A stretch of 64,000 nucleotides of DNA, taken from the NCBI RefSeq assembly GCF_028882255.1, contig NZ_JARBUY010000005.1, positions 248,001 through 312,000 of the forward strand. The letters run 5' to 3'. The notes beneath the pieces were generated by a model. That model was not told the DNA's origin. It did no database searches and worked only from the letters and a program-made list of their open reading frames with translations. This document shows, one piece after another, positions 1 through 20,310 of the stretch. The translations under genes and the position numbers were made by a program. This DNA comes from Maribacter polysaccharolyticus. GTDB taxonomy: Bacteria; Bacteroidota; Bacteroidia; Flavobacteriales; Flavobacteriaceae. The stretch's first letter is position 1, and each line of letters begins with the position of its first letter.

Positions 1-2351
1 TAAGAACCTTCAACAGTTACCCACTTTACGAATGAAAAAGAAAAACCTAATAATATTCGGAACAAGACCTGAAGCCATTAAAATGGCCCCTTTGGTTAAG
101 GCTTTATTAAGAAATGATGTTTTTGAAACCAAAGTCTGTGTTACCGCACAACATCGTGAAATGCTCGATCAGGTACTGGATTTCTTCGAAATCACTCCGG
201 ATTACGATTTAGATTTAATGAAACCAGGTCAGAACCTCTACGGTCTAACTGCGGCCATAATTACTGGATTACAGCCCGTTCTCGAAGAATTCAATCCCGA
301 TTATGTTTATGTTCATGGGGATACCACCACCACCATGGGATCCAGTATTGCAGGGTTCTATTCTGGCGCCAAGGTATGTCATGTGGAAGCAGGTCTACGG
401 ACTTTTAACAAGAATTCCCCTTTTCCAGAGGAAATCAATAGAACCATAACGGGGCATATTGCGGATTATCATTTTGCCCCAACACAAACTTCGTTCGACA
501 ATTTACGGAATGAGGGCATTTCCAAAGAAAATATCTTAATCACAGGCAATACGGTTATTGATGCACTTTTCGAAAGCGTCAGCAAAGTTGACAACCTCGA
601 GGATCTTGAAATACTAAATCTAAAGAGCGAGCTGGATTTTACTAAAAGGATCATTTTGGTCACGGGACATCGAAGGGAAAACCACGGGCAAGGATTTATC
701 AATATTTGTAATGCCTTAAAAGAAATCGGGGAAAGGGTAGATAATGTACAGATCATCTATCCAGTGCATTTAAATCCAAAAGTACAGAAACCTGTTTATG
801 ATATTTTAGGTAAGCAAGAAAATATAAAATTAATCGCCCCACTTGCCTATCCGGCTTTTGTGTGGCTCATGAACAAATGCGAACTCGTTATAACGGATAG
901 TGGTGGCGTACAGGAAGAAGCGCCAAGTTTGGGCAAACCCGTTCTCGTCATGCGTGACACTACCGAAAGGCCCGAAGCTGTTGATGCGGGTACAGTAATC
1001 CTGGTCGGTACGGATACAAAGAAAATCGTGAGTGAGACAATGGATCTTATGGGCAATACAGAGCGTTATAAAACTATGAGCAAACTTCATAACCCTTATG
1101 GAGATGGAAAGGCAAGTAAAAGAATTGTGGAATTTATAAAAAACTTAAATTAATGAACAATCCAGAAGCAGTAATAATAGGACTTGGCTATATTGGCCTG
1201 CCTACAGCAGCTTTAATAGCTGAAGGGGGAACCTATGTACATGGTGTTGACATCAACCAAAATGTGGTAGATACCATCAACAGGGGTGAAATTCATATCG
1301 TGGAGCCTTCATTGGATACATCTGTGTCGAACGCGGTAAGCAAGGGGTTTTTAAAGGCTGCCACAACACCAGTGGAGACCAAAACCTACCTAATTGTTGT
1401 ACCGACCCCTTTTAAAGACAAACATGAACCTGATATATCTTTTGTTCAATCCGCAACTACTGCAATTCTACCATTACTGAAAGAAGGTGATTTGTACATC
1501 ATTGAATCTACTTCACCGATTGGAACTACGGAAAAGATGATGACCTATATCTATGAAGAACGCCCAGAATTAAATGGAAAATTGCATATTGCATATTGTC
1601 CAGAACGGGTGTTACCAGGAAATGTCATGTATGAACTGGTGCATAATGACCGTGTCATAGGCGGCGTTAATGAGGCTTCAACAGAAAAAGCTGTAGCTTT
1701 TTACTCCAAATACGTTAAAGGTGAATTGCATAAAACCAATGCCCGGACCGCTGAAATGTGTAAATTGGTCGAAAACTCATCAAGAGACGTTCAAATAGCC
1801 TTTGCCAACGAATTGTCATTAATTTGTGATAGGGCCGATATTAATGTTTGGGAACTAATTAATTTAGCCAATCGGCACCCTAGGGTAAATATCTTACAAC
1901 CAGGATGTGGTGTTGGAGGGCACTGCATAGCAGTTGATCCTTACTTCATTGTGGCTGATTACCCTATGGAATCGAAAATTATTGGGACTGCACGAGAAGT
2001 AAACAATTATAAATCTTTCTGGTGTGCTGAAAAAGTGCAAAATGCAAGATTAAAGTTTGAACTTCAACATGGAAGAAAACCCAAGATTGCACTAATGGGC
2101 CTTGCTTTTAAACCTGACATCGATGATTTAAGGGAGTCCCCTGCCAAATATATTGTACAACGTGTTTTACAAAATGCGAACAATGAGGAATATTATATCG
2201 TAGAACCCAATATTGAAGAACACAACGTTTTTAAATTAACCGACTATAAAACGGCTTATGAAAAGGCCGATATTGTTGTTTTCCTCGTTGCTCATAAAGA
2301 GTTTAAAAACCTACCAAAAGATTCAGAAAAGATGATGCTCGATTTTTGCGG
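1..2351 (+). repeat. Long direct repeat, copy 1 (wecB-wecC)
   Basis: This stretch recurs at an offset of 8,031 bases. Every line I compared by eye is identical, and the two encoded WecB proteins are the same residue for residue. Identity ends at base 2351, nine coding bases before the wecC stop, where copy 1 continues gaactttaaataa and copy 2 continues agtatacaagtag. The left end cannot be placed because the window begins inside the repeat or at its edge. No transposase or terminal inverted repeat is visible at the right junction. Confidence 0.97.
32..1153 (+). CDS. wecB: UDP-N-acetylglucosamine 2-epimerase (non-hydrolysing), copy 1
   Basis: This enzyme interconverts UDP-GlcNAc and UDP-ManNAc in the cytosol, the first step toward UDP-ManNAcA for surface polysaccharide. 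At 373 residues it has the family's usual length. [11 protein letters not shown] lies at residues 10-20. Candidate catalytic residues match the E. coli enzyme's D95/E117/E131/H213 pattern: D97 in HGDTTTT, E119 in HVEAGLR, E133 or E134 in FPEEINR, and H213 in TGHRREN. The stop codon shares one base with the wecC start (TAATG), which suggests translational coupling. The protein is identical to the copy at 8063-9184. The family assignment is firm; the glycan served is inferred. Confidence 0.96.
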
Positions 2352-8031: not shown

Positions 8032-10382
8032 TAAGAACCTTCAACAGTTACCCACTTTACGAATGAAAAAGAAAAACCTAATAATATTCGGAACAAGACC
8101 TGAAGCCATTAAAATGGCCCCTTTGGTTAAGGCTTTATTAAGAAATGATGTTTTTGAAACCAAAGTCTGTGTTACCGCACAACATCGTGAAATGCTCGAT
8201 CAGGTACTGGATTTCTTCGAAATCACTCCGGATTACGATTTAGATTTAATGAAACCAGGTCAGAACCTCTACGGTCTAACTGCGGCCATAATTACTGGAT
8301 TACAGCCCGTTCTCGAAGAATTCAATCCCGATTATGTTTATGTTCATGGGGATACCACCACCACCATGGGATCCAGTATTGCAGGGTTCTATTCTGGCGC
8401 CAAGGTATGTCATGTGGAAGCAGGTCTACGGACTTTTAACAAGAATTCCCCTTTTCCAGAGGAAATCAATAGAACCATAACGGGGCATATTGCGGATTAT
8501 CATTTTGCCCCAACACAAACTTCGTTCGACAATTTACGGAATGAGGGCATTTCCAAAGAAAATATCTTAATCACAGGCAATACGGTTATTGATGCACTTT
8601 TCGAAAGCGTCAGCAAAGTTGACAACCTCGAGGATCTTGAAATACTAAATCTAAAGAGCGAGCTGGATTTTACTAAAAGGATCATTTTGGTCACGGGACA
8701 TCGAAGGGAAAACCACGGGCAAGGATTTATCAATATTTGTAATGCCTTAAAAGAAATCGGGGAAAGGGTAGATAATGTACAGATCATCTATCCAGTGCAT
8801 TTAAATCCAAAAGTACAGAAACCTGTTTATGATATTTTAGGTAAGCAAGAAAATATAAAATTAATCGCCCCACTTGCCTATCCGGCTTTTGTGTGGCTCA
8901 TGAACAAATGCGAACTCGTTATAACGGATAGTGGTGGCGTACAGGAAGAAGCGCCAAGTTTGGGCAAACCCGTTCTCGTCATGCGTGACACTACCGAAAG
9001 GCCCGAAGCTGTTGATGCGGGTACAGTAATCCTGGTCGGTACGGATACAAAGAAAATCGTGAGTGAGACAATGGATCTTATGGGCAATACAGAGCGTTAT
9101 AAAACTATGAGCAAACTTCATAACCCTTATGGAGATGGAAAGGCAAGTAAAAGAATTGTGGAATTTATAAAAAACTTAAATTAATGAACAATCCAGAAGC
9201 AGTAATAATAGGACTTGGCTATATTGGCCTGCCTACAGCAGCTTTAATAGCTGAAGGGGGAACCTATGTACATGGTGTTGACATCAACCAAAATGTGGTA
9301 GATACCATCAACAGGGGTGAAATTCATATCGTGGAGCCTTCATTGGATACATCTGTGTCGAACGCGGTAAGCAAGGGGTTTTTAAAGGCTGCCACAACAC
9401 CAGTGGAGACCAAAACCTACCTAATTGTTGTACCGACCCCTTTTAAAGACAAACATGAACCTGATATATCTTTTGTTCAATCCGCAACTACTGCAATTCT
9501 ACCATTACTGAAAGAAGGTGATTTGTACATCATTGAATCTACTTCACCGATTGGAACTACGGAAAAGATGATGACCTATATCTATGAAGAACGCCCAGAA
9601 TTAAATGGAAAATTGCATATTGCATATTGTCCAGAACGGGTGTTACCAGGAAATGTCATGTATGAACTGGTGCATAATGACCGTGTCATAGGCGGCGTTA
9701 ATGAGGCTTCAACAGAAAAAGCTGTAGCTTTTTACTCCAAATACGTTAAAGGTGAATTGCATAAAACCAATGCCCGGACCGCTGAAATGTGTAAATTGGT
9801 CGAAAACTCATCAAGAGACGTTCAAATAGCCTTTGCCAACGAATTGTCATTAATTTGTGATAGGGCCGATATTAATGTTTGGGAACTAATTAATTTAGCC
9901 AATCGGCACCCTAGGGTAAATATCTTACAACCAGGATGTGGTGTTGGAGGGCACTGCATAGCAGTTGATCCTTACTTCATTGTGGCTGATTACCCTATGG
10001 AATCGAAAATTATTGGGACTGCACGAGAAGTAAACAATTATAAATCTTTCTGGTGTGCTGAAAAAGTGCAAAATGCAAGATTAAAGTTTGAACTTCAACA
10101 TGGAAGAAAACCCAAGATTGCACTAATGGGCCTTGCTTTTAAACCTGACATCGATGATTTAAGGGAGTCCCCTGCCAAATATATTGTACAACGTGTTTTA
10201 CAAAATGCGAACAATGAGGAATATTATATCGTAGAACCCAATATTGAAGAACACAACGTTTTTAAATTAACCGACTATAAAACGGCTTATGAAAAGGCCG
10301 ATATTGTTGTTTTCCTCGTTGCTCATAAAGAGTTTAAAAACCTACCAAAAGATTCAGAAAAGATGATGCTCGATTTTTGCGG
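8032..10382 (+). repeat. Long direct repeat, copy 2 (wecB-wecC)
   Basis: This is the second copy of bases 1-2351, in the same orientation, 2,351 bases long. It carries the 31 bases before wecB, all of wecB and wecC up to its last three codons. Recombination between the copies would remove 8,031 bp as a circle holding the GT4, gmd, GT2, reductase and WbpL-like genes plus one wecBC. The left edge may extend beyond the window in copy 1, so the true repeat length is a minimum. Confidence 0.97.
8063..9184 (+). CDS. wecB: UDP-N-acetylglucosamine 2-epimerase, copy 2
   Basis: This protein is identical over all 373 residues to the copy at 32-1153, with the same candidate catalytic set (D97, E119, E133/E134, H213), and the DNA also appears identical. 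It makes UDP-ManNAc from UDP-GlcNAc. It again couples to wecC through a one-base TAATG overlap. Unlike copy 1, it has 320 bases of A/T-rich DNA in front, so it may be expressed differently. Lack of even silent differences implies recent duplication, continuing gene conversion, or an assembly artefact. Confidence 0.95.
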
Positions 10383-10603: not shown

Positions 10604-11083
10604 ATGAAAAAAGATTATTTAGAAAAGGTACGAACCATCGATAGCATTATAAAAGCAACTTATGATTCTATGGGAGGTGAACCAGGAGACCAAAGGGATT
10701 GGGATTTATACAAATTCCTATATCATCCTAATGGTCAGATGATTCGCTATGAAAACGATTTTATAGACGGAGAAGTAAGGCCACAATACATGTCTCCAGA
10801 TGACTTTGTAAACTCAATTGGAAAGTGGATTCAAACCGTGCGGAAAACAGGTTTTTATGAACGAGAAATTCATCGAATCACCAAAGTCTACGGTAATACT
10901 GCACACGTTTGGAGTACTTGCGAATCTTTTCATAGTAAAAAAGACATGAAAGAAAACAAACCCTATGTAAAAAATGTGCATAGTGTACAATTAGCTTTTT
11001 ACAAAGAAAGATGGTGGGTTCTTAGTATGTATTGGTCACGAGAAACAGAGGAATTTCCAATTCCAAAAGAATTTCTGGAATAA
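10604..11083 (+). CDS. SnoaL/NTF2-like protein, paralogue 1
   Basis: This is a small cytosolic protein of 159 residues with no signal peptide. Its length, N-terminal helix and the later strands rich in Trp and Tyr (TAHVWSTCESFHS, SVQLAFYKERWWVLSMYW) fit the NTF2-like/SnoaL-like cone fold. Members bind small hydrophobic molecules and can act as cyclases, isomerases or dehydratases, but many have no known activity. It is clearly paralogous to the 161-residue protein at 11255-11740, sharing RDWD, a YHP/FHP step, GFYERE, STCESFHS and ERWW. It sits between wecBC copy 2 and the DltA-like block. The function is unknown. Confidence 0.7.
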   Translation: MKKDYLEKVRTIDSIIKATYDSMGGEPGDQRDWDLYKFLYHPNGQMIRYENDFIDGEVRPQYMSPDDFVNSIGKWIQTVRKTGFYEREIHRITKVYGNTAHVWSTCESFHSKKDMKENKPYVKNVHSVQLAFYKERWWVLSMYWSRETEEFPIPKEFLE

Positions 11084-11090
11084 CACTTTC

Positions 11091-11127
11091 ACATTTTAAA
11101 ACTAAATTCTTCTAAAATGTAGTTTTA
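11091..11127 (+). repeat. Interleaved hairpin arms between the SnoaL-like genes
   Basis: ACATTTTA (11091-11098) can pair with TAAAATGT (11113-11120). TAAAACTA (11097-11104) can pair with TAGTTTTA (11120-11127). The arm order, left-left-right-right, is that of a pseudoknot or of two competing hairpins. It begins eight bases after the first SnoaL-like stop. The DNA is A/T-rich, so part of this may be chance. Confidence 0.35.
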
Positions 11128-11254
11128 GATAATGGATAATCAAGTCTATCTTTTTTAAAAAACTATAACTAGTAAAAAACTAACAGGATGCCTGTTCTAT
11201 TTTCGAATTACATTTATTCCTGAATAAATTTATAACATAAATAATAAAACAATT

Positions 11255-11740
11255 ATGAAAGAAGAGTATTTAAAGAGTGTTCAAACTATGGATGATATCA
11301 TAAAAACTTCTTATGCCTGTATAGGGGGAAAAGCATATGAACCTAGAGATTGGGATTTCTATAGATTTTTATTTCATCCAGAAGGAAAATTAATCCGATA
11401 TGAAAATGATATGGAAGGCGTATTAAGACCTCAGTTTTTATCTCCAGACGACTATATTAATGGTATTGGAAAATGGATGGAAACTAAGCGGACAACAGGC
11501 TTTTATGAAAGGGAAATAGGCAGGGTCGAAGAAATTTATGGTAACATAGCGCATGTCATAAGTACTTGTGAATCTTTTCATAGTTTAGAGGAGATGGAAG
11601 CCAATACGCCTTATGTGAGAAATGTTCACAGTATTCAATTAGCTTATCATGAAGAAAGATGGTGGATTCTTAATATGTATTGGCAACGTGTTACCCCAGA
11701 ATTTCCCCTCCCTGAAAAATATTTGAAGTATAGCAAATAA
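11255..11740 (+). CDS. SnoaL/NTF2-like protein, paralogue 2
   Basis: This 161-residue protein is a tandem paralogue of the one at 10604-11083. The order of conserved blocks is the same: an N-terminal helix, PRDWDFYRFLFHPEG, SPDDYINGIGKW, TGFYEREIGRV, a HVISTCESFHS strand, NVHSIQLAYHEERWW and a proline-rich end. The identical layout suggests local duplication followed by divergence, and both copies keep the buried aromatic residues, so both are probably functional. They may form a hetero-oligomer, as NTF2-like folds often dimerise. A role in processing the product of the following carrier-protein block is suggested only by position. Confidence 0.7.
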   Translation: MKEEYLKSVQTMDDIIKTSYACIGGKAYEPRDWDFYRFLFHPEGKLIRYENDMEGVLRPQFLSPDDYINGIGKWMETKRTTGFYEREIGRVEEIYGNIAHVISTCESFHSLEEMEANTPYVRNVHSIQLAYHEERWWILNMYWQRVTPEFPLPEKYLKYSK

Positions 11741-11752
11741 GACTGGCCTTGA

Positions 11753-11807
11753 AATTATCAATTATACAAAAACGTTACCTTGTAGCGCGCTTGTATAATT
11801 GATAATT
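11753..11807. repeat. Perfect 17-bp inverted repeat, 21-base spacer
   Basis: AATTATCAATTATACAA (11753-11769) is exactly complementary to TTGTATAATTGATAATT (11791-11807). The loop holds gttac and gcgcgc. It starts 12 bases past the second SnoaL-like stop, so it could act as a terminator hairpin on the plus strand, though no T-run follows. It could also be a protein-binding dyad or a remnant of a mobile element. Confidence 0.75.
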
Positions 11808-11961
11808 CATAATCATTTAGTATAGGATTACACATACAAGGGTTGTCTGGGATGACCTGAAATGGAAAAAGTTTATATGATGTTCTACCAGTGGCTTCAT
11901 TAACATGATTTCCAACTCTTGCAACAATTTTTTGTAGTATGACTAGTATAACAGAATTTTT
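11758..11961 (-). pseudogene. Possible remnant of a coding sequence, minus strand
   Basis: The 429 bases before the DltA-like gene (11741-12169) contain no complete gene. On the minus strand a frame stays open for 67 codons from 11961 down to a TGA at 11758-11760. Its translation has an ordinary protein look (RVGNHVNEATGR, LFPFQVIPDNPCMCNP), but there is no usable start near its beginning. Its end runs into the 17-bp inverted repeat. I do not recognise the family. The rest of the gap shows no promoter I can defend. Confidence 0.25.
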
Positions 11962-12169
11962 TCAACAATAATTCAAAAAGCGATTCAATTCAGGTCGAAA
12001 TAAGTTATTTTTATACTATGGATAGCTTGATTCCTAAACACATTTAAGATATTGATTAATTGACGGAAATGTAGCCCAAGGTAACACGATATGATATAAA
12101 TATTCCGTTTAGTTATTTAAAAAACCAAACCAAATAACAATTGAACTTTTTGTATAAAATACTCCAATT

Positions 12170-13690
12170 ATGTTAAAGATCAATTTAATTGAATATTTTG
12201 AAAATACCGCCGATTCATTTCCCGATAAATTAGCCCTTGTCGACAGTACCTCCCAATTATCTTTCCACGCGTTAAAGCAAAAGGCAAAACGTATCGCAAC
12301 CCAAATAACCAAAGAGAGCCATACGATCAAAAGACCTGTTGCCATTTATTTACCCAAGACCAATGATGCCATTGCTTCATTTTTAGGCACTATGTATAGT
12401 GGTAATTGCTATACTCCATTGGATACGAAGAATCCTGTCCCAAGAATTGAAGCGATCTTAAAAGCATTGAACCCATCTTGCATAGTAACAAATGACAGGT
12501 TTATTGCCAACATTGAAAAATGTAATTTAGATATTAAGGTCATCAACCTAGATCAATTGGATGAAGGACAAAAAATTGACGAAAATTTTAATTATCGAAA
12601 ATGTATAGATACCGATCCTGCATATATTTTGCACACCTCGGGTTCTACGGGGGTACCAAAAGGGGTAGTTATTTCACATCTATCCATTATCGATTATATA
12701 AATTGGGTTGTTGACACCTTCGATATCACCGAAAAAGAAAAAATCGGCAATCAGACCCCATTCATTTTTGATATGTCCACCTTAGACATCTATCTAATGA
12801 TCTTTAAAGGTGCAACACTCTATATAATTCCCGAACAGAAGTTCATGTTTCCTGCTACGTTGTTGGACTATATAAACGAAAATGAAATAAACTTTATTTT
12901 TTGGGTTCCATCGGTGTTGGTCAATATCGCAAATCTTAAACTTCTAGGTCCGATTAAAATTCCGACCATCAAAAAAGTATTATTTGGTGGAGAAGTCATG
13001 CCTCCCAAGCATTTGGGCTATTGGATAAATAATTTAGATAAAAATGTTGTTTATGGCAATATGTATGGGCCTACAGAAATTACAGGAACCTGTGTTTGCC
13101 ATATTGTCGATGACACGTTCAATGAAAACGAATCCCTTCCTATTGGTAAGCCGTGTAGAAATACCGACATATTGGTTCTAAATGAAAAGGATGAACTTTG
13201 CAAAGTAGGTGAGAAAGGTGAATTATGCGTTAGAGGATCCTCACTTGCCTTGGGATATTGGAATAATCTTGAAAAAACCAATGCCGTTTTTGTTCAAAAC
13301 CCCTTGAACAAATCGATACCGGAAAGAATCTATAGAACCGGTGATATCGCTTTTTTAAATGAAAAAGGGGAATATATTTATATAGGCAGAAAAGATTTTC
13401 AAATAAAATTATCGGGGTATAGAATTGATTTAGGGGAAATAGAACACTATATTTTAAGTGTTTTTGACACTATAAATGCAGGGGTATTCTTTGATAAGGC
13501 GAAAAGTGAGATTGTTTTGATTTACGAGTCAGGGAACGAAATATCCGTAAAGGAATTCAGATCAAAATTAGCACAGGTCCTATCTAAACATATGATACCC
13601 ACAAGGTATATTAAAATGGATATTTTACCTAAATCAACAACCGGAAAAATAGACAGGGCATTATTGAACAAAAAAATCAATAACGCATAA
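12170..13690 (+). CDS. Stand-alone adenylation enzyme, DltA-like
   Basis: This cytosolic AMP-forming ligase of 506 residues is close in length to DltA (D-alanine-carrier ligase). The core motifs are intact: HTSGSTGVPKG (residues 155-165), YGPTE (299-303), YRTGD (388-392) and the C-terminal catalytic lysine K493 in TGKIDR. The segment FDMSTLDIY has D201 where amino-acid-activating domains hold the aspartate that binds the substrate amino group, which favours an amino acid over a fatty acid. The DltC-like carrier 39 bases downstream is its likely acceptor. It probably makes an aminoacyl-carrier thioester for glycan decoration. The amino acid cannot be read safely. Confidence 0.85.
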   Translation: MLKINLIEYFENTADSFPDKLALVDSTSQLSFHALKQKAKRIATQITKESHTIKRPVAIYLPKTNDAIASFLGTMYSGNCYTPLDTKNPVPRIEAILKALNPSCIVTNDRFIANIEKCNLDIKVINLDQLDEGQKIDENFNYRKCIDTDPAYILHTSGSTGVPKGVVISHLSIIDYINWVVDTFDITEKEKIGNQTPFIFDMSTLDIYLMIFKGATLYIIPEQKFMFPATLLDYINENEINFIFWVPSVLVNIANLKLLGPIKIPTIKKVLFGGEVMPPKHLGYWINNLDKNVVYGNMYGPTEITGTCVCHIVDDTFNENESLPIGKPCRNTDILVLNEKDELCKVGEKGELCVRGSSLALGYWNNLEKTNAVFVQNPLNKSIPERIYRTGDIAFLNEKGEYIYIGRKDFQIKLSGYRIDLGEIEHYILSVFDTINAGVFFDKAKSEIVLIYESGNEISVKEFRSKLAQVLSKHMIPTRYIKMDILPKSTTGKIDRALLNKKINNA

Positions 13691-13729
13691 AACGATAATA
13701 GAAAGAAGTATTAATCAATTATAGTTAGT

Positions 13730-13963
13730 TTGAAAAAAAAAATATTAGACTTTTTAACCGAAATTAGACCGGAGTTCGACTTTGCAGCATCCAGTAATTT
13801 CATTGAAGAGGGAATGTTGGACTCATTTGACATTGTTAGTTTGGTTGCCTCACTGGATGAAGAATATGGAATTTCGATTGACGGAACGGAAATTTTACCG
13901 GAAAATTTTTCCAATGTCGATAGTATTTATCAATTGCTAATTAAAAACGGTGTTACGGAATGA
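13730..13963 (+). CDS. Acyl/aminoacyl carrier protein, DltC-like
   Basis: This carrier protein of 77 residues (DltC is 78) has phosphopantetheine serine S32 in the GMLDSFDIV motif, which resembles DltC's EEGLLDSF more than a fatty-acid ACP. The start codon is TTG; no ATG lies nearby in frame, and TTG places the first helix correctly. The end overlaps the KAS III-like start by four bases (ATGA), so the two are translationally coupled. It probably receives an activated amino acid from the DltA-like enzyme. No DltB or DltD homologue lies in view, so the acceptor is unlikely to be reached by the classical Dlt route. Confidence 0.85.
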   Translation: MKKKILDFLTEIRPEFDFAASSNFIEEGMLDSFDIVSLVASLDEEYGISIDGTEILPENFSNVDSIYQLLIKNGVTE

Positions 13964-15030
13964 ACCTAAAATTTCACAATAAAAAAATTACAGGCATCCT
14001 AACTGTATTGCCTGAAAACGAAGTCAATTTTGACGACGAGATCGATAACTACGACTTCTCTAGGGGTCAATCCATGAAACTTAAATTGATCATGGGGTAT
14101 GGTAAGCGCAGGGTGGTAAAAGAAGGGACGACGGCTTCGGATCTATGCATTTTTGGCCTAAATTATCTTTTTGATAATGATCTTTTGAAAAAGGATGACA
14201 TCGATGCGATGGTCTTGGTGACCCAGTCCCCCGACCATTTTGTGCCGGCAACAAGTCATATCATTCAAGGAAAGCTCGATTTAAAACGGGATATGATCTG
14301 TCTCGATATCAATCAAGCCTGTTCTGGCTACCCTATTGGACTCAACCAAGCTTTTATGTTGTTGGAACAGGAGGAGGTGAACAAAGTAGTGGTATTGAAC
14401 GCCGATACAATGAGCCAAAAGGTTTCTGTTAAGGATAGGGGCAGTAGACCATTGACCGGTGATGCCGCTGCCATTACAATTGTCGAAAATAGTACATCCG
14501 AAAACACCATATATGGCACTACAAAAGTAGATGGAAAAGGTGCTGAAGCCTTGATCATCCCTGCAGGTGGTTTCAGGATGCCATCCACTCCGGAAACCGC
14601 GGAATTAGAAACCGATAAAAGCGGAAATTCAAGATCTTTGGATCATTTGGTAATGAAAGGGGATGACATTTTCACATTTGTTCAACAAGAAGTCCCCCCC
14701 ATGATCGATCATTTATTGGCGATGGCCAATTGTGATAAAGAAGAAATAGATTATTACATGTTTCATCAACCCAATAAATTCATGCTAAAAAAACTTGCTG
14801 ATAAAATGGGGGTGCCCTATAGTAAAATGCCGAATAATGTTGTTGAGAATTTTGGTAACGCTAGCGGTGTTTCCATTCCTACCGCCATTACCTTTAATTT
14901 AAGTGGGCAACTGGTCAAAGATTCCTATTTAATGTGTTTAGCCGGATTTGGGGCTGGTCTGAGTTGGACCTCATTACTTATGAATATTGGTAATTTGGAT
15001 TTTTGTGAAACTATTGATTACAAGATTTAA
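13960..15030 (+). CDS. 3-oxoacyl-ACP synthase III-like (FabH-like) enzyme
   Basis: This thiolase-fold enzyme of 356 residues keeps a full KAS III triad: C121 in NQACSGYP, H269 in FHQPNKF and N300 in NFGNASG. KAS III enzymes transfer an acyl group to the active cysteine and then condense it with malonyl-ACP; relatives in biosynthetic clusters instead form esters or amides. The insertion around residues 200-230 and the DltC-like partner make housekeeping fatty-acid initiation unlikely. It overlaps ACP1 by four bases and sits three bases before ACP2. It could extend an acyl or aminoacyl starter, or move it between the two carriers. Confidence 0.85.
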   Translation: MNLKFHNKKITGILTVLPENEVNFDDEIDNYDFSRGQSMKLKLIMGYGKRRVVKEGTTASDLCIFGLNYLFDNDLLKKDDIDAMVLVTQSPDHFVPATSHIIQGKLDLKRDMICLDINQACSGYPIGLNQAFMLLEQEEVNKVVVLNADTMSQKVSVKDRGSRPLTGDAAAITIVENSTSENTIYGTTKVDGKGAEALIIPAGGFRMPSTPETAELETDKSGNSRSLDHLVMKGDDIFTFVQQEVPPMIDHLLAMANCDKEEIDYYMFHQPNKFMLKKLADKMGVPYSKMPNNVVENFGNASGVSIPTAITFNLSGQLVKDSYLMCLAGFGAGLSWTSLLMNIGNLDFCETIDYKI

Positions 15031-15033
15031 TTT

Positions 15034-15249
15034 ATGGAAAATTTTATAGAAATAATTGCTGAAATCCTTGAAGAGGAAACCGTTGCGCTTAGCGATGAGC
15101 TTGAATCATTCGAGGCTTGGGATTCATTGACCGTTTTGTCGATCATCGCATTATGCGACTCAGAATATAATGCCCCCTTATCGGCAGAGGAAATTGAAAA
15201 TTCAGGTACCATATTGGGGCTAAAAAAGTTGATTGAAAGCAAAATGTAG
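15034..15249 (+). CDS. Acyl carrier protein, second carrier
   Basis: This is a small acidic carrier protein of 71 residues with the phosphopantetheine serine S31 in EAWDSLTVL, a motif of the O-antigen and secondary-metabolite ACP type that differs from the first carrier's LDSFDIV. It lies three bases after the KAS III-like gene, which implies one transcript. Two different carriers around one condensing enzyme suggest that one delivers the starter or aminoacyl unit and the other carries the extender or the finished acyl chain. This division of labour is inference. Confidence 0.85.
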   Translation: MENFIEIIAEILEEETVALSDELESFEAWDSLTVLSIIALCDSEYNAPLSAEEIENSGTILGLKKLIESKM

Positions 15250-15617
15250 TGCCCATCTTGCTTTATCTTTAAAATCCCGATAATAGAAAAAAGCCCTTTA
15301 ATAAAGTAGAATATCAATCAAAAAGACGGGTCTGTGAGTCATCAATCTCGATAGTATCGGGGCCATCCATTCCCAGATATTTCGGGACCAATTTATATAA
15401 GAATTATCGTGCTAATTCAAGTCAGGAAATCACCAAGAGATGCAGCGAAGAAAATCAAATTGAAGGTCATGGAAAAGACTAGGAATTAAAACTACGAGAT
15501 AAAATTTCTTGACCATAAAATAAATAATTCACACCTAATTAATAATAATTGAATTGCCATTTCCAGTAATAAAAATAAGATTTAGGTAAAGTACAACAGC
15601 TAAAACATATTAAAATC
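15250..15617. other. 368-base gap with a startless open frame
   Basis: No complete gene is visible. The plus-strand frame 15273-15482 is open for 69 codons to a TAG, has no Met, and translates to an ordinary-looking sequence (SGPSIPRYFGTNLYKNY, KRCSEENQIEGHGKD). It could be the decayed end of a gene or chance. A short dyad, CGATAGTATCG, lies inside it. The last 120 bases are A/T-rich and probably hold the start signals of the next gene. Confidence 0.4.
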
Positions 15618-16283
15618 ATGAGAAACGTAATAATTTTGGGTACCGGAGGGTGCGCCTCAGAGGTGACATTTTATATTAATGATCATAATTCCAAAGTGCC
15701 AGAAGGGAAAAGGATTAACATTTTAGGGCATATCGATTATGCCTATAATGTTGAGAACCATTATGAAAAATATAATTTCAAGGCTCCGATTTTATGTGAT
15801 ATTGATGAATATGAGCCAAAACCAGATGAAGAGGTTTTAATTGCTGTCATGAATATTGAGTTTAAACAAAAAATGATTAAAGCGCTAATAGCCAAAAATG
15901 CCAAAATTGGCGGTTTTATACACCATAGTGTTATAATGCCAGAAAACCTTCACATTGGTGAGGGTAATATAGTTTTCCCATTCTGTATCCTCGAAGAATA
16001 TGCCTCTATTGGCAATTACAACCTCCTAACTTCGTATTGCTTTATTAGTCATGATTGCGTAGTGGGGGACAATAACTTTTTTTCCGTTGCAGGTGTTGCC
16101 GGATCCGTAAAAGTTGGAAACAACAACTATTTCGGACTTAGGTCATTGGTAATTCCGCATGTTGAAGTGGGCAACAATAATGTTATTCAAGCTGGTATGA
16201 TTGTTGACAAAAATGTGAAAAATGACACCACGGTTTTCTATAGGTTTAAAGAAAAGGTTTTGGCAATTCCAAAGGCAAATTAA
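15618..16283 (+). CDS. NeuD-family sugar O/N-acyltransferase
   Basis: This cytosolic transferase of 221 residues has the two-part NeuD/PglD layout. A Rossmann-like N-terminal domain carries GTGGCASEV (residues 8-16). The C-terminal left-handed parallel beta-helix has hexapeptide repeats (IGEGNI, VGDNNF, VGNNNY, VGNNNV). The likely catalytic base is H145 in the ISHDCVVGD turn. Family members acetylate sialic acids or UDP-amino sugars from acetyl-CoA, and some use other acyl donors. Its place after the two carrier proteins raises the possibility that it takes its acyl group from a carrier. No lipid anchor or signal peptide is seen. Confidence 0.85.
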   Translation: MRNVIILGTGGCASEVTFYINDHNSKVPEGKRINILGHIDYAYNVENHYEKYNFKAPILCDIDEYEPKPDEEVLIAVMNIEFKQKMIKALIAKNAKIGGFIHHSVIMPENLHIGEGNIVFPFCILEEYASIGNYNLLTSYCFISHDCVVGDNNFFSVAGVAGSVKVGNNNYFGLRSLVIPHVEVGNNNVIQAGMIVDKNVKNDTTVFYRFKEKVLAIPKAN

Positions 16284-16760
16284 TATTTATTAATAATAAC
16301 CTAGACATTATCATTTAGATGAAAAGTACATTCATGCCTGTAAATTGTTAAAGTAAGAATAGCTAAAATGACTTTTAAAAGTCTGTTATGTCCCATTAAT
16401 GTACGTATTAGTTCAATGAAAAATCATGACAAACTTAAAGCAAGTTACTATAAGCGACTACATAACTATATTCACATAGAAAAAAGAATGTAGCGTATAA
16501 TTGTAAATGAATTATAATTTACAACAAGGACTATTTATTAAGGTTATTAATTACGACATAGTTTGAACAAATGCATTAATAGTAATTCGTTCTGAACTTC
16601 AATAGATTATAGGCAGTGTAATGTTTCTTTATAACTATGGAAATGTTAAATATCACGTTTCTGGGACAGAAAAATCCCCTCTTCAAGAATATCAATATTA
16701 TTAACTTGACTGTAATAAAAGTTTGAAAATAATACTATACATTTCTAAAAGAGTTGAACT
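16284..16760. other. 477-base A/T-rich gap
   Basis: I find no gene. A small hairpin is present: TTGTAAAT (16501-16508) with ATTTACAA (16517-16524), eight-base loop. TATACATTTC (from 16735) resembles the TAnnTTTG element with one mismatch and lies close before the next start, so a weak promoter there is possible. No repeat shared with other parts of the window was noticed. Confidence 0.5.
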
Positions 16761-17450
16761 ATGATATCAAATGATAATATCGATATTAATAAACCTTTGC
16801 ATATATTAGGATTTGTTCCTGAAATACTTAATGTTCTTCTTGAGTTAGCAGACGATACTTTCGGTTTTCAGTCGTTTAGGGTCCTTGAAAACATCAATAG
16901 GATTTCCAACAAATATTTTGTTTCGTTGGATAGATATAACGTAAAATTCAAAAACTTCTATAAACAGGAATATACTATAAATCCAAACGATTCTTTTGCC
17001 TTCGGTGTTGTGGGTGTAAAATCCAAAGAAATTGTCTATAGGTTTTTTAAGGAAAAAATAGGTATGTGTGATGAAAGCTTTTTAAATTTAATTCATCCAA
17101 CAGCGGTCCTTTCGAACTCTGTAAGGTTGAATAATGGAATTCAAGTGGGTATTCATACATCAATAAATGTATTAACAGAAATCGGGTTTGGTGTCAACAT
17201 TAAAAACCAGTGCTATATAGGGCATCATGGAAAAATTGGTGATTTTGTCACCATAAACCCTGGGGTTACCGTAAATGGATTCGTTGAAATTGGCAATAAT
17301 ACCCAAATAGGAGCTGGAGCAATAATTAGAGATAAAATAAAAATTGGTGCCAATTGTATAATTGGAATGGGCAGCAATGTAATAAAAGATATTCCTGACA
17401 ATTCCATTGCCTTCGGAAATCCTTGTAAAGTACATCAGAAAAACAATTAA
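16761..17450 (+). CDS. PglD/NeuD-like acyltransferase, divergent
   Basis: This 229-residue protein has a left-handed beta-helix in its C-terminal half (repeats VRLNNG, VNIKNQ, IGDFVT, IGNNTQ, IGANCI) ending in IAFGNPCKV, the usual cap of this family. H155 in YIGHHGKIGD aligns with the catalytic histidine of PglD. The N-terminal half is long but lacks the clean GxGG nucleotide motif of its neighbour, reading HILGFVPEI. It probably acylates an amino sugar or its nucleotide form. Two acyltransferases in one block suggest two positions acylated or two different acyl groups. Confidence 0.8.
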   Translation: MISNDNIDINKPLHILGFVPEILNVLLELADDTFGFQSFRVLENINRISNKYFVSLDRYNVKFKNFYKQEYTINPNDSFAFGVVGVKSKEIVYRFFKEKIGMCDESFLNLIHPTAVLSNSVRLNNGIQVGIHTSINVLTEIGFGVNIKNQCYIGHHGKIGDFVTINPGVTVNGFVEIGNNTQIGAGAIIRDKIKIGANCIIGMGSNVIKDIPDNSIAFGNPCKVHQKNN

Positions 17451-17467
17451 GATTGTTTTATTACGTT

Positions 17468-18607
17468 ATGACCAATGTAGAAAAAGCACAAAGTTTTATG
17501 AAAGAGTTTTCTATATACCACTTGGATAATGATAGGAAGGAAAAGTTTCTGTTGGAAGTTCATAGTATTAAATCTGATGCAGATTTAGAAAAATATGACG
17601 TCTTTTTAAAACAACTTCCAGAAAATCCTTTTATAACGAAAGAGCTTTTACCCAGAAAAACAGACCAAAAGAGTGGTTATTTCACGTTACACAATGATAA
17701 AAATAACTTATTAATTTTGTTGCCATTTATTAGCCGGAAGATTTATTGGGAAGATAAAGAAACTGGGTACTATGACATTATATCTCCTTACGGATTCGTG
17801 GGACCTATAATAAATAGAGAAATCGATGAAAAAACCATGAAACTGTTTTGGAATCTAGTAGATGAATGGCACCTAAATAATAACGTGGTTTCAGAATTTA
17901 TACGGTTCAATTTTAATTGCAATTACTTAGGATATACTGGTTCCGTAGTTCCAACATTGCAAATGGTATGTGGTAATATACTTACGGAATTTGAACAATG
18001 GATTAATTTTAAGCCTAAAGTAAGAAACAATGTTAGAAAAGCACTAAGTTATGGCTTAAAAGGTATTGTCTTTCATAAGAATATCAGTAAAAAGAATATA
18101 ATAGAATTTTATGATATCTATTCGAAAACCATGAATCGCCTTAACGCTAAATCAAGTTATCGTTACAGTTTAGATTTTTTTAAAAATTATATTTTGAACA
18201 ATCCCAATAGTTGTTCATTAGCCCTAGTTTACAAAGAAAATTTGGCAATCTCTGCGGAATTACTATTATTGTCTGGTAAGGTTGTCTACTCTTTTTTAGG
18301 TGGGACAGATGAAACATATTTTTATGCTCGACCCAATGATCTCTTAAAATTAGAAGTAATTAATTGGTCACGGAAAAGCGGATATGAATACTATTTTCTT
18401 GGCGGCGGTAAAGAAGAAAGAGATAATCTATATAATTATAAAAAAAGATTTTTTCCAAAAGATAGAGATCTTACATTTTACACCGGTAGAAAAATCCTGA
18501 ATAAGGAAATATACAACAACCTAGCCCAAACCCAAAATACTCCCAATACACAAAATCCTTGTGCTAAAGAGTTTTTTCCTTTATATAGATATTTAGAGAG
18601 TGAATAG
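17468..18607 (+). CDS. FemAB/GNAT-like aminoacyl- or acyltransferase
   Basis: This protein of about 379 residues belongs to the FemAB-like double-GNAT group (Acetyltransf_6 style). The PKVRNNVRKAL segment opens the second GNAT unit, followed by SRKSGYEYYFLGGG and NLYNYKKRFFP near the end, both typical of the group. FemX-type enzymes use aminoacyl-tRNA; distant relatives in capsule and exosortase loci act on other acceptors. I place the start at ATG 17468; a TTG at 17453, three bases after the previous stop, would add five residues. With the DltA/DltC-like pair upstream it is a plausible final transferase, but its donor is unproven. Confidence 0.75.
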   Translation: MTNVEKAQSFMKEFSIYHLDNDRKEKFLLEVHSIKSDADLEKYDVFLKQLPENPFITKELLPRKTDQKSGYFTLHNDKNNLLILLPFISRKIYWEDKETGYYDIISPYGFVGPIINREIDEKTMKLFWNLVDEWHLNNNVVSEFIRFNFNCNYLGYTGSVVPTLQMVCGNILTEFEQWINFKPKVRNNVRKALSYGLKGIVFHKNISKKNIIEFYDIYSKTMNRLNAKSSYRYSLDFFKNYILNNPNSCSLALVYKENLAISAELLLLSGKVVYSFLGGTDETYFYARPNDLLKLEVINWSRKSGYEYYFLGGGKEERDNLYNYKKRFFPKDRDLTFYTGRKILNKEIYNNLAQTQNTPNTQNPCAKEFFPLYRYLESE

Positions 18608-18673
18608 AATATACTCACTATTGAGTAATGAAATTTTGACACTTTTCCAATAACTAGAAATATTTTCTCTTTT

Positions 18674-19351
18674 TTATTCTAGTCTGCATAAATTCTTGGC
18701 ACCAGACTTTAGACTTCCGTAATAATAATCATTAAAACCTGCTTTATTCATAAGCTGAAATACTTTCTCCATATCATATTCAACACGATGTAATTTAATC
18801 TTATTATTTTCAACAACAGCAAAGGCCGCTTTTGGATTATTATCCCTCGGTTGTCCTACCGATCCAGGATTACAATATATTTTATCTCCAAATTGCTTTA
18901 ATATTTGGATATGTGTATGTCCGGACATAAATATCTTACCTTCTATTCTAGAAAAATAATCCATTGATGGTTCGTTTATATATTCATCAATTGGATCGGA
19001 CCAACCACCATGCACCATGTGAATGTTTCCGAGAAACCTTTGAACCTCACTTTTTCTCAACCATTCTACGTTCTCCTCCTTAATTATTTTTCTCTGGTAT
19101 TTTAAACAATCATTTACACTTTTACTTCTAAGACAAAATCCCCCACTAGATAAATACCAATCATGATTCCCCATTAGATTTGGGATATTCCGTTCAATAA
19201 GTTCTTCGCAACATTCATTTACCTGGGAATAATACCCAACAACATCCCCTAAACTATAAACTTCAGACACATCCAATCCGTCCAGTTCTTTAAGTACTGA
19301 CTTAAGTGCTTCATAATTCCCATGTATGTCCGATATGACTCCTATTTTCAT
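18674..19351 (-). CDS. Metallophosphoesterase, YfcE-like
   Basis: This cytosolic calcineurin-like phosphoesterase of 225 residues has all metal-binding motifs: DIHGN near the start (D8, H10), GDVVGY, GNHDW, a mid-chain histidine in HGGW and GHTH. Such enzymes hydrolyse phosphodiesters or phosphomonoesters of small molecules. Its ATG overlaps the ATP-grasp stop by four bases, so the pair is translationally coupled. It runs convergently with the FemAB-like gene across a 66-base gap that holds a short dyad (TACTCA-ctat-TGAGTA). Substrate unknown; a role in removing a phosphate from a sugar or ligase product is guesswork from the pairing. Confidence 0.85.
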   Translation of the reverse strand: MKIGVISDIHGNYEALKSVLKELDGLDVSEVYSLGDVVGYYSQVNECCEELIERNIPNLMGNHDWYLSSGGFCLRSKSVNDCLKYQRKIIKEENVEWLRKSEVQRFLGNIHMVHGGWSDPIDEYINEPSMDYFSRIEGKIFMSGHTHIQILKQFGDKIYCNPGSVGQPRDNNPKAAFAVVENNKIKLHRVEYDMEKVFQLMNKAGFNDYYYGSLKSGAKNLCRLE

Positions 19352-20310
19352 GAATAAAATACGTAATCTTCAATATATCTAATCGCCTTTCCTTGCTTGA
19401 TCTTAGGTTGTTTTGGAATTTTACCTTTTAAATAATACTCAATTGCCATTAAAGTATCATTAAAGCCAAATGCAGTTCTCAATGATGTGGATGAAGAAAA
19501 GCGTGGATTAATCTCTAACAGTTTAGGTTCCCCATTATGAAATCTGAATTGAAAGTTCGTAGGCCCAACCGGCCTTAAAATCTCACATATATCCAAGACC
19601 GCTTTTTCAATCTTTTCGCTTTTAAACACCTCTACCTCATTCGTATAACCTTTTTCGGCCAATTTTCTCTTGAAAGTTATGATGCCATAATAACCTCCAT
19701 TTCCATCGCAAAACGCACCAGAGGTAAATTCTTCCTCATCCTTTCCTATTAAGGGTTGAGCCATTAACTTCTTACCAATGCCTTCTTTGTACAATTCAAA
19801 AGTTTCTTGTTTGTAAATCTTTACAATCCCCTTCGAAGCACTTCCCTGTCTTGGTTTCAATAGTAATGGCAAACCAAAATCGCTTCTCAATTCATTAAAA
19901 TCAGATGAAAGTGAACTAGGTATAACATAAGGACAATTATTGCTTTCCAATACCCTGTAAAATGCCCATTTGTCATTACATAACTGGACCAACTCAAAAT
20001 TATTTAAAACAACTTTAACACCTGTTGATTCTATTTTTTTTCTATTATTGGATAAAAAAATAACATCTTCTTCGAAACTTGGAATTACTAAATCTACATG
20101 GTGGTCTTTAATAACCTTTAGAAACCAATCGATATAACCTTCCGAACCACAAATAGGAGCTTCAATACAAACATCAGTCAAGGAAGATGCAATGGATAAT
20201 TTATGAATTGTTGATCCAATTATATTATACGGCTTTTTTAGACTTCGTATTGAATTTAATATTCCATATCCTATTAGCGAACTGGCTCCTGTTACGAGAA
20301 TGTTGGTCAT
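19348..20310 (-). CDS. ATP-grasp ligase, CarB-like
   Basis: This protein of 320 residues belongs to the ATP-grasp superfamily, which joins a carboxylate (activated as acyl phosphate) to an amine, thiol or hydroxyl. The N-terminal domain begins ILVTGASSLIGYGI; the central lid includes LLLKPRQGSASKGI; LLEINPRFSSSTS near the C-terminus is the metal-binding ExNxR signature. It resembles the CarB-like proteins often found in capsule and O-antigen loci. It is translationally coupled to a metallophosphoesterase. It may add an amino acid or carboxylic acid to a glycan precursor, giving a second route of modification besides the carrier-protein block. Substrates unknown. Confidence 0.82.
   Translation of the reverse strand: MTNILVTGASSLIGYGILNSIRSLKKPYNIIGSTIHKLSIASSLTDVCIEAPICGSEGYIDWFLKVIKDHHVDLVIPSFEEDVIFLSNNRKKIESTGVKVVLNNFELVQLCNDKWAFYRVLESNNCPYVIPSSLSSDFNELRSDFGLPLLLKPRQGSASKGIVKIYKQETFELYKEGIGKKLMAQPLIGKDEEEFTSGAFCDGNGGYYGIITFKRKLAEKGYTNEVEVFKSEKIEKAVLDICEILRPVGPTNFQFRFHNGEPKLLEINPRFSSSTSLRTAFGFNDTLMAIEYYLKGKIPKQPKIKQGKAIRYIEDYVFYS

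Follow-up and report, generated by a model that had tools for sequence, protein, structure and literature searches.

A putative amino-acid-primed acyl cassette built around a KAS III-like enzyme and two carriers in a glycan locus of Maribacter polysaccharolyticus

The stretch of DNA analysed here (hereafter the window; 64,000 nucleotides, positions 248001-312000 of a contig in the 4.76-Mb genome of Maribacter polysaccharolyticus, with positions given in window numbering throughout) carries four adjoining genes for an amino-acid adenylation enzyme, a first carrier protein, an enzyme that resembles 3-ketoacyl-acyl carrier protein synthase III (KAS III, below simply KAS), and a second carrier protein. 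These four genes form a conserved, horizontally shared unit, in which KAS and carrier 2 constitute a near-constant core while the starter module in front of them is swapped. We consider it probable, at roughly 65%, that this cassette combines loading as in nonribosomal peptide synthetases (NRPS) with ketide extension to produce a short N-acyl group that ends up on an amino sugar.

For the substrate, the order of steps, the transfer, the product and the acceptor sugar we infer the following route. The adenylation enzyme would activate an amino acid and load it onto carrier 1, the aminoacyl group would move to C121 of KAS, and condensation with malonyl on carrier 2 would result in a gamma-amino-beta-oxoacyl group on carrier 2. 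Two NTF2-like proteins might shape this group, or a reductase might act on it if the genome encodes one at another place. A NeuD/PglD-type acyltransferase would then take it over from carrier 2 and attach it to a nucleotide-activated sugar, at the amino group, before the sugar enters the polysaccharide. That the product of the cassette serves as N-acyl donor for an amino sugar is very probable, that the starter is an amino acid has only slightly less to be said for it, and condensation with malonyl on carrier 2 is likely. A first-pass annotation of this DNA had already proposed activation of an amino acid, loading on carrier 1, the KAS reaction with carrier 2 and transfer to an amino sugar, and with the gene unit now found to be conserved and shared, this is still the best model. 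The four genes are as follows (L numbers denote loci of the comparison below; dN/dS, the ratio of nonsynonymous to synonymous substitution rates, refers to the comparison with M. polysiphoniae, L038):

12170..13690, plus strand: amino-acid adenylation enzyme, putatively for starter activation (TIGR01733 over cut-off; pocket code DMLFLGMGTK; dN/dS 0.048)
13730..13963, plus strand: carrier protein 1, putative starter carrier (S32; PF00550; 95-96% identical in L038, L039, L040, L041 and L052; dN/dS 0.018)
13960..15030, plus strand: KAS III-like condensing enzyme, the cassette core (C121, H269, N300; from family matches, alignment and tree)
15034..15249, plus strand: carrier protein 2, putative extender/product carrier (S31; a carrier lies directly 3' of KAS in 34/37 loci)

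The gaps between adenylation enzyme, carrier 1, KAS and carrier 2 are 39, -4 and 3 bp, and the four genes thus are one tight operon. All open reading frames and residues that had been named in the first-pass annotation (D201 of the adenylation enzyme, S32, the triad C121/H269/N300, and S31) are present at their places. Six genes compared with L038 have dN/dS ratios of 0.018-0.105, which points to strong constraint on all six; the ratios are only rough because dS is 0.96-1.75.

KAS matches the ACP_syn_III families over their cut-offs, and C121, H269 and N300 are invariant in 22 aligned KAS sequences, the window included. A Cys-His-Asn triad is the set of residues used for decarboxylative condensation in FabH chemistry. 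The fabH family TIGR00747 itself is not reached (158 bits, cut-off 292), and the four other KAS III-type genes of the genome are only 24-27% identical to the cassette KAS. The best NCBIfam match is PRK12880 (207 bits, cut-off 436), which we take to be a Campylobacter-type family. KAS is rare, as at an expect value (E) of 1e-80 it occurs in 9 of 397 Flavobacteriaceae genomes and in 5 of 12 Maribacter genomes. Nevertheless, it also turns up in contigs assigned to Acidobacteria, Gastranaerophilales, Curvibacter and Oleispira, assignments that stem from metagenome-assembled genomes.

The adenylation enzyme matches Pfam AMP-binding (E 1e-67) and exceeds the cut-off of the amino acid adenylation family TIGR01733 (338 bits, cut-off 317), and its D201 is invariant in 16 aligned sequences, again including the window. 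Its nearest relatives in the Protein Data Bank are NRPS adenylation domains; LgrA comes first when two domains are summed, while per domain tyrocidine synthase 1 reaches 246 bits, GrsA 233, and LgrA 200 and 192. Carrier 1 is over the PF00550 cut-off with 26.3 bits, and carrier 2 just below it (20.4 against 20.8 bits), both with the serine in place. The window thus has the features of an NRPS-type loading module, namely a TIGR01733 domain with its aspartate and an adjoining carrier with the phosphopantetheine serine. LgrA, the linear gramicidin synthase, has the domain order formylation, adenylation, carrier, and a free-standing adenylation enzyme, formyltransferase and carrier stand in a row in L056, L061, L113 and L116. 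In contrast to LgrA, there is no formyltransferase beside the window operon, and the carrier feeds a KAS III instead of a condensation domain.

For the comparison, KAS alone served as bait in a contig scan, so the neighbours were not built into the sample. The scan gave 30 loci, which together with the window locus and six further loci make 37 distinct loci, with L032, L033, L111, L112 and L115 removed as duplicates of L038, L048, L043, L041 and L051, and L036 and L037 excluded for a KAS that is just 27-32% identical. As controls, 15 FabH-type genes were used: L017 and L018, which are the L036 and L037 loci with short flanks, and the next-best FabH-type matches L019-L031, all with flanks of about 1.5 kb (less in L025). 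A carrier follows within 150 bp after KAS in 34 of 37 loci and in none of the 15 controls (Fisher p 2e-10, calculated for loci that are related to each other), and a carrier within 1.5 kb upstream of KAS is found in 27/33 loci as compared to 1/15 controls. A carrier of type 1 lies within 400 bp upstream in 25/35 loci. Within 6 kb upstream, 23 of the 37 loci, mainly of Bacteroidota, have the adenylation enzyme; within 3 kb, it is present in 20 of the 30 loci that have at least 2.7 kb there. Upstream neighbours are out of view in L049, L053, L058, L063 and L065, where the contigs end near KAS. A NeuD/PglD-type acyltransferase lies within about 4 kb of KAS in 22 of the 31 loci with enough flank. 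The carrier counts against the FabH-type controls, together with the adenylation counts, rule out chance co-location, and it is almost certain that this is a coherent cassette shared between glycan loci; the scatter without co-occurrence that would have spoken against the first-pass proposal was not what the genomes gave.

The cassette also occurs outside Bacteroidota. The megaplasmid NZ_CP054613 of the Gram-positive Paenibacillus cellulosilyticus carries adenylation enzyme, GNAT, carrier 1 and KAS (55% identity) in the same order (L134, 4346-10717), together with genes for a short-chain dehydrogenase/reductase (SDR), an AAC(3)-like and a metallo-beta-lactamase-fold protein; the cassette is unannotated in the record. 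A search of plasmid DNA gave one short match, inside the adenylation gene of this cassette. A Parabacteroides distasonis plasmid (NZ_OY725812; L135, 4456-8795) has a capsule-like locus with an acetyltransferase, two carriers, an AMP-binding protein, a KAS III (31%) and an SDR, and may be a remoter variant of this design.

Three types of starter module precede the core, and the KAS enzymes that they feed are close relatives of each other. Type A, as in the window, consists of adenylation enzyme and carrier 1. In type B, an FkbH-domain protein (TIGR01686, 296 bits, cut-off 147) stands with a carrier, in some loci accompanied by MaoC-like or glyoxalase-like genes; FkbH occurs without an adenylation enzyme in L034, L035, L048, L051 and L066, and together with one in L059, and L049, on a short contig, counts as type B by its carrier, MaoC and SDR neighbours. 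The set of FkbH, carrier and KAS in these Bacteroidota glycan loci suggests glyceryl- or lactyl-type starters for sugar decorations. Type C, found in L044-L046 (Maribacter sp. PR1 and two Winogradskyella), combines a fatty-acid-type AMP ligase with an iron-containing alcohol dehydrogenase, a LuxE-LuxC fusion and a carrier. In a KAS tree, type B (6 rows) and type C (3 rows) form one clade each with support of 100/99, and only 2 changes in all are needed among the three types, while Maribacter species occur in each of them. In this tree, L040, L058, L060, L063 and L065 are unlabelled, L059 with both starters stands outside the count, and the labels of L053 and L049 derive from GNAT with carrier 1 alone and from the neighbours, respectively. 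The KAS phylogeny follows starter type and not species. KAS thus spreads and diversifies together with its starter module, which is what one expects of a condensing enzyme that is specific for its starter.

Within type A, eight of the 23 adenylation loci (L054, L055, L056, L057, L061, L067, L113, L116) have a gene for a GNAT-type N-acetyltransferase or a formyltransferase that separates the adenylation enzyme from carrier 1, an arrangement that parallels formylating NRPS loading modules such as that of LgrA. A GNAT takes this place also in L134, while in L064 it lies downstream instead. A likely reason for such capping is that gamma-amino-beta-oxo thioesters without a cap are able to cyclise to tetramic acids. 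The pocket codes of the adenylation enzymes are of two main kinds, DMLFLGxGTK in 8 of 9 loci with an NTF2-like gene and in L040, L047 and L050, and D(N/I/H)xF(L/W/I)AL(V/L)DK in L110, L114, L059 and all capped loci except L067. The codes do not map cleanly onto the accessory genes: L067, with a GNAT, has DMLFLGLVIK, and DNLFLALVDK is shared by L110, which has an NTF2-like gene, and L114, which has neither.

All this can be brought together, tentatively and with odds somewhat below even, in a combinatorial, horizontally exchanged system. A near-constant core of KAS III and carrier would accept alpha-amino or alpha-hydroxy acyl starters from interchangeable free-standing NRPS-like, FkbH-like or LuxE/LuxC modules and deliver statine-like gamma-amino-beta-oxo or -hydroxy acyl groups to interchangeable amino-sugar N-acyltransferases, with N-formyl or N-acetyl caps blocking cyclisation to tetramic acids and NTF2-like proteins handling the uncapped version. 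If this is true, bacterial surface polysaccharides would bear small NRPS/ketide hybrid groups from modules that can be exchanged, and serotypes would have a source of diversity that has so far escaped notice. One could then read the starter type off the position of a KAS sequence in the phylogeny, and glycan chemistry would be tied to a building block of the statine kind that arises apart from secondary metabolism.

Several observations weigh against the proposed route or its generality. With regard to the tree, type A does not divide neatly: the NTF2-like loci require 4 changes, those that have neither a cap nor an NTF2-like gene do not group together, and support is weak for 12 of the 34 inner branches. 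The neighbourhood is not constant either: in 9/31 loci a NeuD-type gene is missing from the 4 kb around KAS, no carrier can be read behind KAS in L044 and L047, in L067 the carrier is further off, and the Paenibacillus cassette has no carrier after KAS and only a weak one upstream. We know of no code that equals the pocket code DMLFLGMGTK, and L047 and L050, with DMLFLGLGTK only one position off, do not have an NTF2-like gene. High-scoring NTF2-like genes also exist without KAS, in the glycan loci L107-L109, beside a PglC-type sugar transferase. Finally, the interval from 2.5 kb before to 5 kb after KAS in the window gave no match to an SDR reductase, and an SDR is near KAS in 0/9 loci with an NTF2-like gene against 9/14 other adenylation loci. 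Without a neighbouring reductase, the beta-keto group may stay, or extension may not occur.

The latter leads to the reading that the KAS-like enzyme only hands on the aminoacyl group, from the first carrier to the second or to an acceptor, and that what reaches the sugar is an aminoacyl group, either plain or N-capped. Decorations of this type have been described, namely N-acetylalanyl on both Qui3N and Qui4N, and N-(3-hydroxybutyryl)-alanyl on Qui4N (PMC3210612), and besides the missing reductase near the operon, the GNAT and formyltransferase modules of the relatives would yield such N-acylated aminoacyl groups. Against it, 15 of the 37 loci that share this core carry SDR reductases, which a ketide route would require, and FkbH and LuxEC starters feed the same KAS. 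Mere acyl shuttling should not need a Cys-His-Asn triad, yet the triad is invariant in the aligned KAS enzymes. We regard transfer without extension as unlikely. Still less probable is a free small molecule or lipid as product, with a cassette that merely sits in a glycan locus. Hybrid sets of NRPS and KAS III are usual in secondary metabolism, but the four operon proteins have Pfam matches to adenylation, carrier and KAS families only, and many cassettes stand with genes for sugar transferases or amino sugars (PglC-type, DegT, FdtA, RmlA-like or WecB/C) and with a NeuD- or AAC(3)-type acyltransferase. The AAC(3)-like acyltransferases of L057, L060, L061 and L134 indicate that the receiving end varies. 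In addition, the same OmpA-type flank comes after the cassette in nine loci (window, L039, L041, L043, L048, L050, L051, L066, L110).

As to known systems, the first-pass annotation knew of no pathway with this exact set, and open-access literature, searched by titles and abstracts, indeed gave no amino-acid-primed, KAS-extended sugar decoration among the matches listed. Cj1303, Cj1304, Cj1307 and Cj1308 of Campylobacter jejuni presumably encode a KAS III, a carrier, an amino-acid-activating enzyme and a carrier in the flagellar glycosylation region, and this parallel may be an earlier known instance of the gene set; we therefore do not claim categorical newness. Cj1303 to Cj1307 have been used as neighbouring polymerase chain reaction targets (PMC3283744). 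Related ketide N-acyl pathways with KAS, carrier, reductase and PglD- or VioB-type acyltransferase have already been described, and the closest known to the window cassette are wfpC-wfpG and vio (PMC6519341, PMC3927599). The R1-group genes wfpC-wfpG of Flavobacterium psychrophilum, whose R-group genes vary between strains, provide 3,5-dihydroxyhexanoyl on Qui2NAc4N of the O-polysaccharide, and like the cassette they comprise predicted 3-ketoacyl-ACP synthases (two), a dedicated acyl carrier protein (ACP) and a PglD-type N-acyltransferase in an O-antigen locus (PMC6519341). Compared by description only, this set is likened by its authors to type II fatty acid synthesis, and the available text does not mention an adenylation enzyme or a second carrier (PMC6519341). 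The viosamine island vioS/acp/vioR/vioB of Pseudomonas syringae, for a 3-hydroxybutyryl-type group on Qui4N, likewise has a KAS III, a carrier and an acyltransferase, VioB, for the amino sugar; unlike the window operon, it has one carrier and a reductase, and no adenylation enzyme among its seven tabled open reading frames (PMC3927599). Of the features of such pathways, the window has a KAS III-type synthase with dedicated carrier in a glycan locus and, by similarity and context (TIGR03570 below cut-off), a PglD/VioB/NeuD-type N-acyltransferase adjoining KAS, while a dedicated 3-ketoacyl reductase is missing beside the window KAS. Flagellin glycosylation islands of Aeromonas and enterobacteria, with ACP, 3-oxoacyl-ACP reductase, AMP-dependent synthetase or coenzyme A ligase, LuxE and LuxC, resemble starter type C (PMC7874193, PMC4875605). 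They differ from the cassette in that the ligase is of the fatty-acid type and a KAS III is not named in the available passages, where the authors suggest a liposugar component (PMC7874193, PMC4875605).

The operon is surrounded by the following genes:

10604..11083, plus strand: NTF2-like (SnoaL-like) protein 1, predicted to share the NTF2-like fold modelled for protein 2 (59% identical to protein 2)
11255..11740, plus strand: NTF2-like (SnoaL-like) protein 2 (AlphaFold model; relative in 9/37 KAS loci; dN/dS 0.085 in comparison to L038)
15618..16283, plus strand: NeuD/PglD-type hexapeptide N-acyltransferase, likely for acyl transfer to the amino sugar (TIGR03570 108 bits, below cut-off)
16761..17450, plus strand: second NeuD/PglD-type acyltransferase, candidate pathway member (TIGR03570 136 bits, below cut-off; 50% identical relative in L114)
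17453..18607, plus strand: FemAB/Acetyltransf_6-type protein, a gene of the locus (curated cut-off passed; such genes in related loci of types A and B)
18674-19351, minus strand: calcineurin-type phosphoesterase, locus flank (pair with the next gene also in L110, L048 and L044)
19348-20310, minus strand: ATP-grasp protein, locus flank (curated cut-off passed; pair also in L110, L048 and L044)

Spacings of 171 and 429 bp after the two NTF2-like genes, and of 368 bp before and 477 bp after the first acyltransferase gene, make these genes look like separate units. The NTF2-like pair had been annotated as SnoaL-like, which is right at the level of the fold only. Neither protein reaches a family cut-off in Pfam or has an NCBIfam match at E 0.01, and a SnoaL family match at E 0.01 was found for neither in either collection; protein 1 has a single sub-threshold match to Pfam Ykof (E 8e-4, 20.2 against 21 bits), whereas protein 2 has no Pfam match at all. 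For protein 2, a confident AlphaFold model, with a mean pLDDT (predicted local distance difference test) of 90, retrieves NTF2-like folds in Foldseek (best E 9.7e-7, template modelling scores 0.50/0.61, 14% identity), which suggests this fold.

Of the 23 adenylation loci, 9 (the window and eight others) encode a relative of these proteins beside the cassette or its adenylation enzyme, and never together with a GNAT or formyltransferase. In these 23 loci, the numbers with both, with NTF2-like gene only, with GNAT or formyltransferase only and with neither are 0, 9, 8 and 6 (Fisher p 0.007), and for SDR in place of the cap 0, 9, 9 and 5 (p 0.003); both p values are too small because the loci are related. 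The underlying tblastn table missed a GNAT (L059) and a formyltransferase (L116), which were found by clustering or blastp, and with these two the counts for the cap would be 0, 9, 10 and 4. In Flavobacteriaceae, 147 of 397 genomes contain the family at E 1e-5, 140 of these only below 185 bits, with weaker-copy counts that are lower bounds, as at most 9 NTF2-like or 5 KAS candidates were scored per genome. Two weaker proteins (L076, L077) start with signal-peptide-like stretches. Copies above 200 bits occur in 7 genomes, in 4 of them beside KAS, which corresponds to 4/9 KAS genomes against 3/388 others (Fisher p 4e-6). The link to the acyl pathway that the first-pass annotation had drawn is thus real, but it is not exclusive, because 3 of the 7 high-scoring genomes have the gene without KAS. 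That the NTF2-like proteins take part in the acyl pathway is possible though rather doubtful, and a shaping role is a guess. The high-scoring genes without KAS lie at L107 8022-8504, L108 7906-8436 and L109 7892-8383, with SDR and SMP-30-like genes near in L107 and L109.

Both NeuD/PglD-like acyltransferases and the FemAB-like protein of the first-pass annotation are present, the former with 108 and 136 bits below the TIGR03570 cut-off of 160.8. Relatives of the 15618-16283 protein with 60-84% identity are found near KAS in flavobacterial loci that resemble the window locus. The FemAB-like gene had been counted with the pathway, and as a cassette-specific gene it was rejected, since such genes are frequent in KAS loci, with five Acetyltransf_6 genes each in L051 and L052. 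Nor is the pair of phosphoesterase and ATP-grasp ligase, which does exist as annotated, tied to the amino-acid module, because the 4 loci out of 37 in which it separates the cassette from the OmpA-type flank (window, L110, L048, L044) represent starter types A, B and C; we thus rejected it as part of the amino-acid cassette. ATP-grasp is found in 2 of 12 Maribacter genomes, both of which also have KAS, and the pair may belong to the locus, though not to the amino-acid module.

The similarity to DltA and DltC raises the question of a Dlt-type D-alanylation system. Scores of 318 bits for the adenylation enzyme as DltA and 28 bits for carrier 1 as DltC indicate distant relatives, but both are under the curated cut-offs (476 and 68), and TIGR01734 for DltA gives 309 bits against a cut-off of 560. 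The reported absence of DltB and DltD extends to the whole genome, with no MBOAT (DltB type) or DltD match at E 0.001; among 14 control genomes, including B. subtilis and L. lactis, the MBOAT model was positive in 3 and the DltD model in 2. A Dlt system can therefore practically be dismissed.

Beside the cassette lie wecB, wecC, gmd-like and glycosyltransferase genes, a Polysacc_synt_2 (PglF-like) gene is located 18 kb upstream (contig 240-242 kb), and RmlB/RmlA-like, Wzx-like flippase and DegT aminotransferase genes follow 36-40 kb upstream (contig about 220-225 kb); labels like RmlB and PglF were given on the basis of Pfam domains and gene context, and the DegT aminotransferase has DesI as best NCBIfam match (249 bits, cut-off 650). 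Judged by these genes, the cassette appears to close an O-antigen-type glycan locus that begins far upstream. A search of window positions 1-21000 for the Bacteroidota-type promoter motif gave two matches only, inside a WecA-like gene and inside the adenylation gene. We also considered whether the interval from the second NTF2-like gene to the adenylation gene holds a conserved element, but similarity there is only patchy in 8 loci, and we claim nothing for it. Window positions 1-2351 and 8032-10382 are a direct repeat of wecB-wecC, 8031 bp apart and 100% identical over 2507 bp, of which 156 extend upstream of the window start. The repeat possibly reflects a recent duplication or gene conversion, and might serve as substrate for losing the intervening 8 kb.

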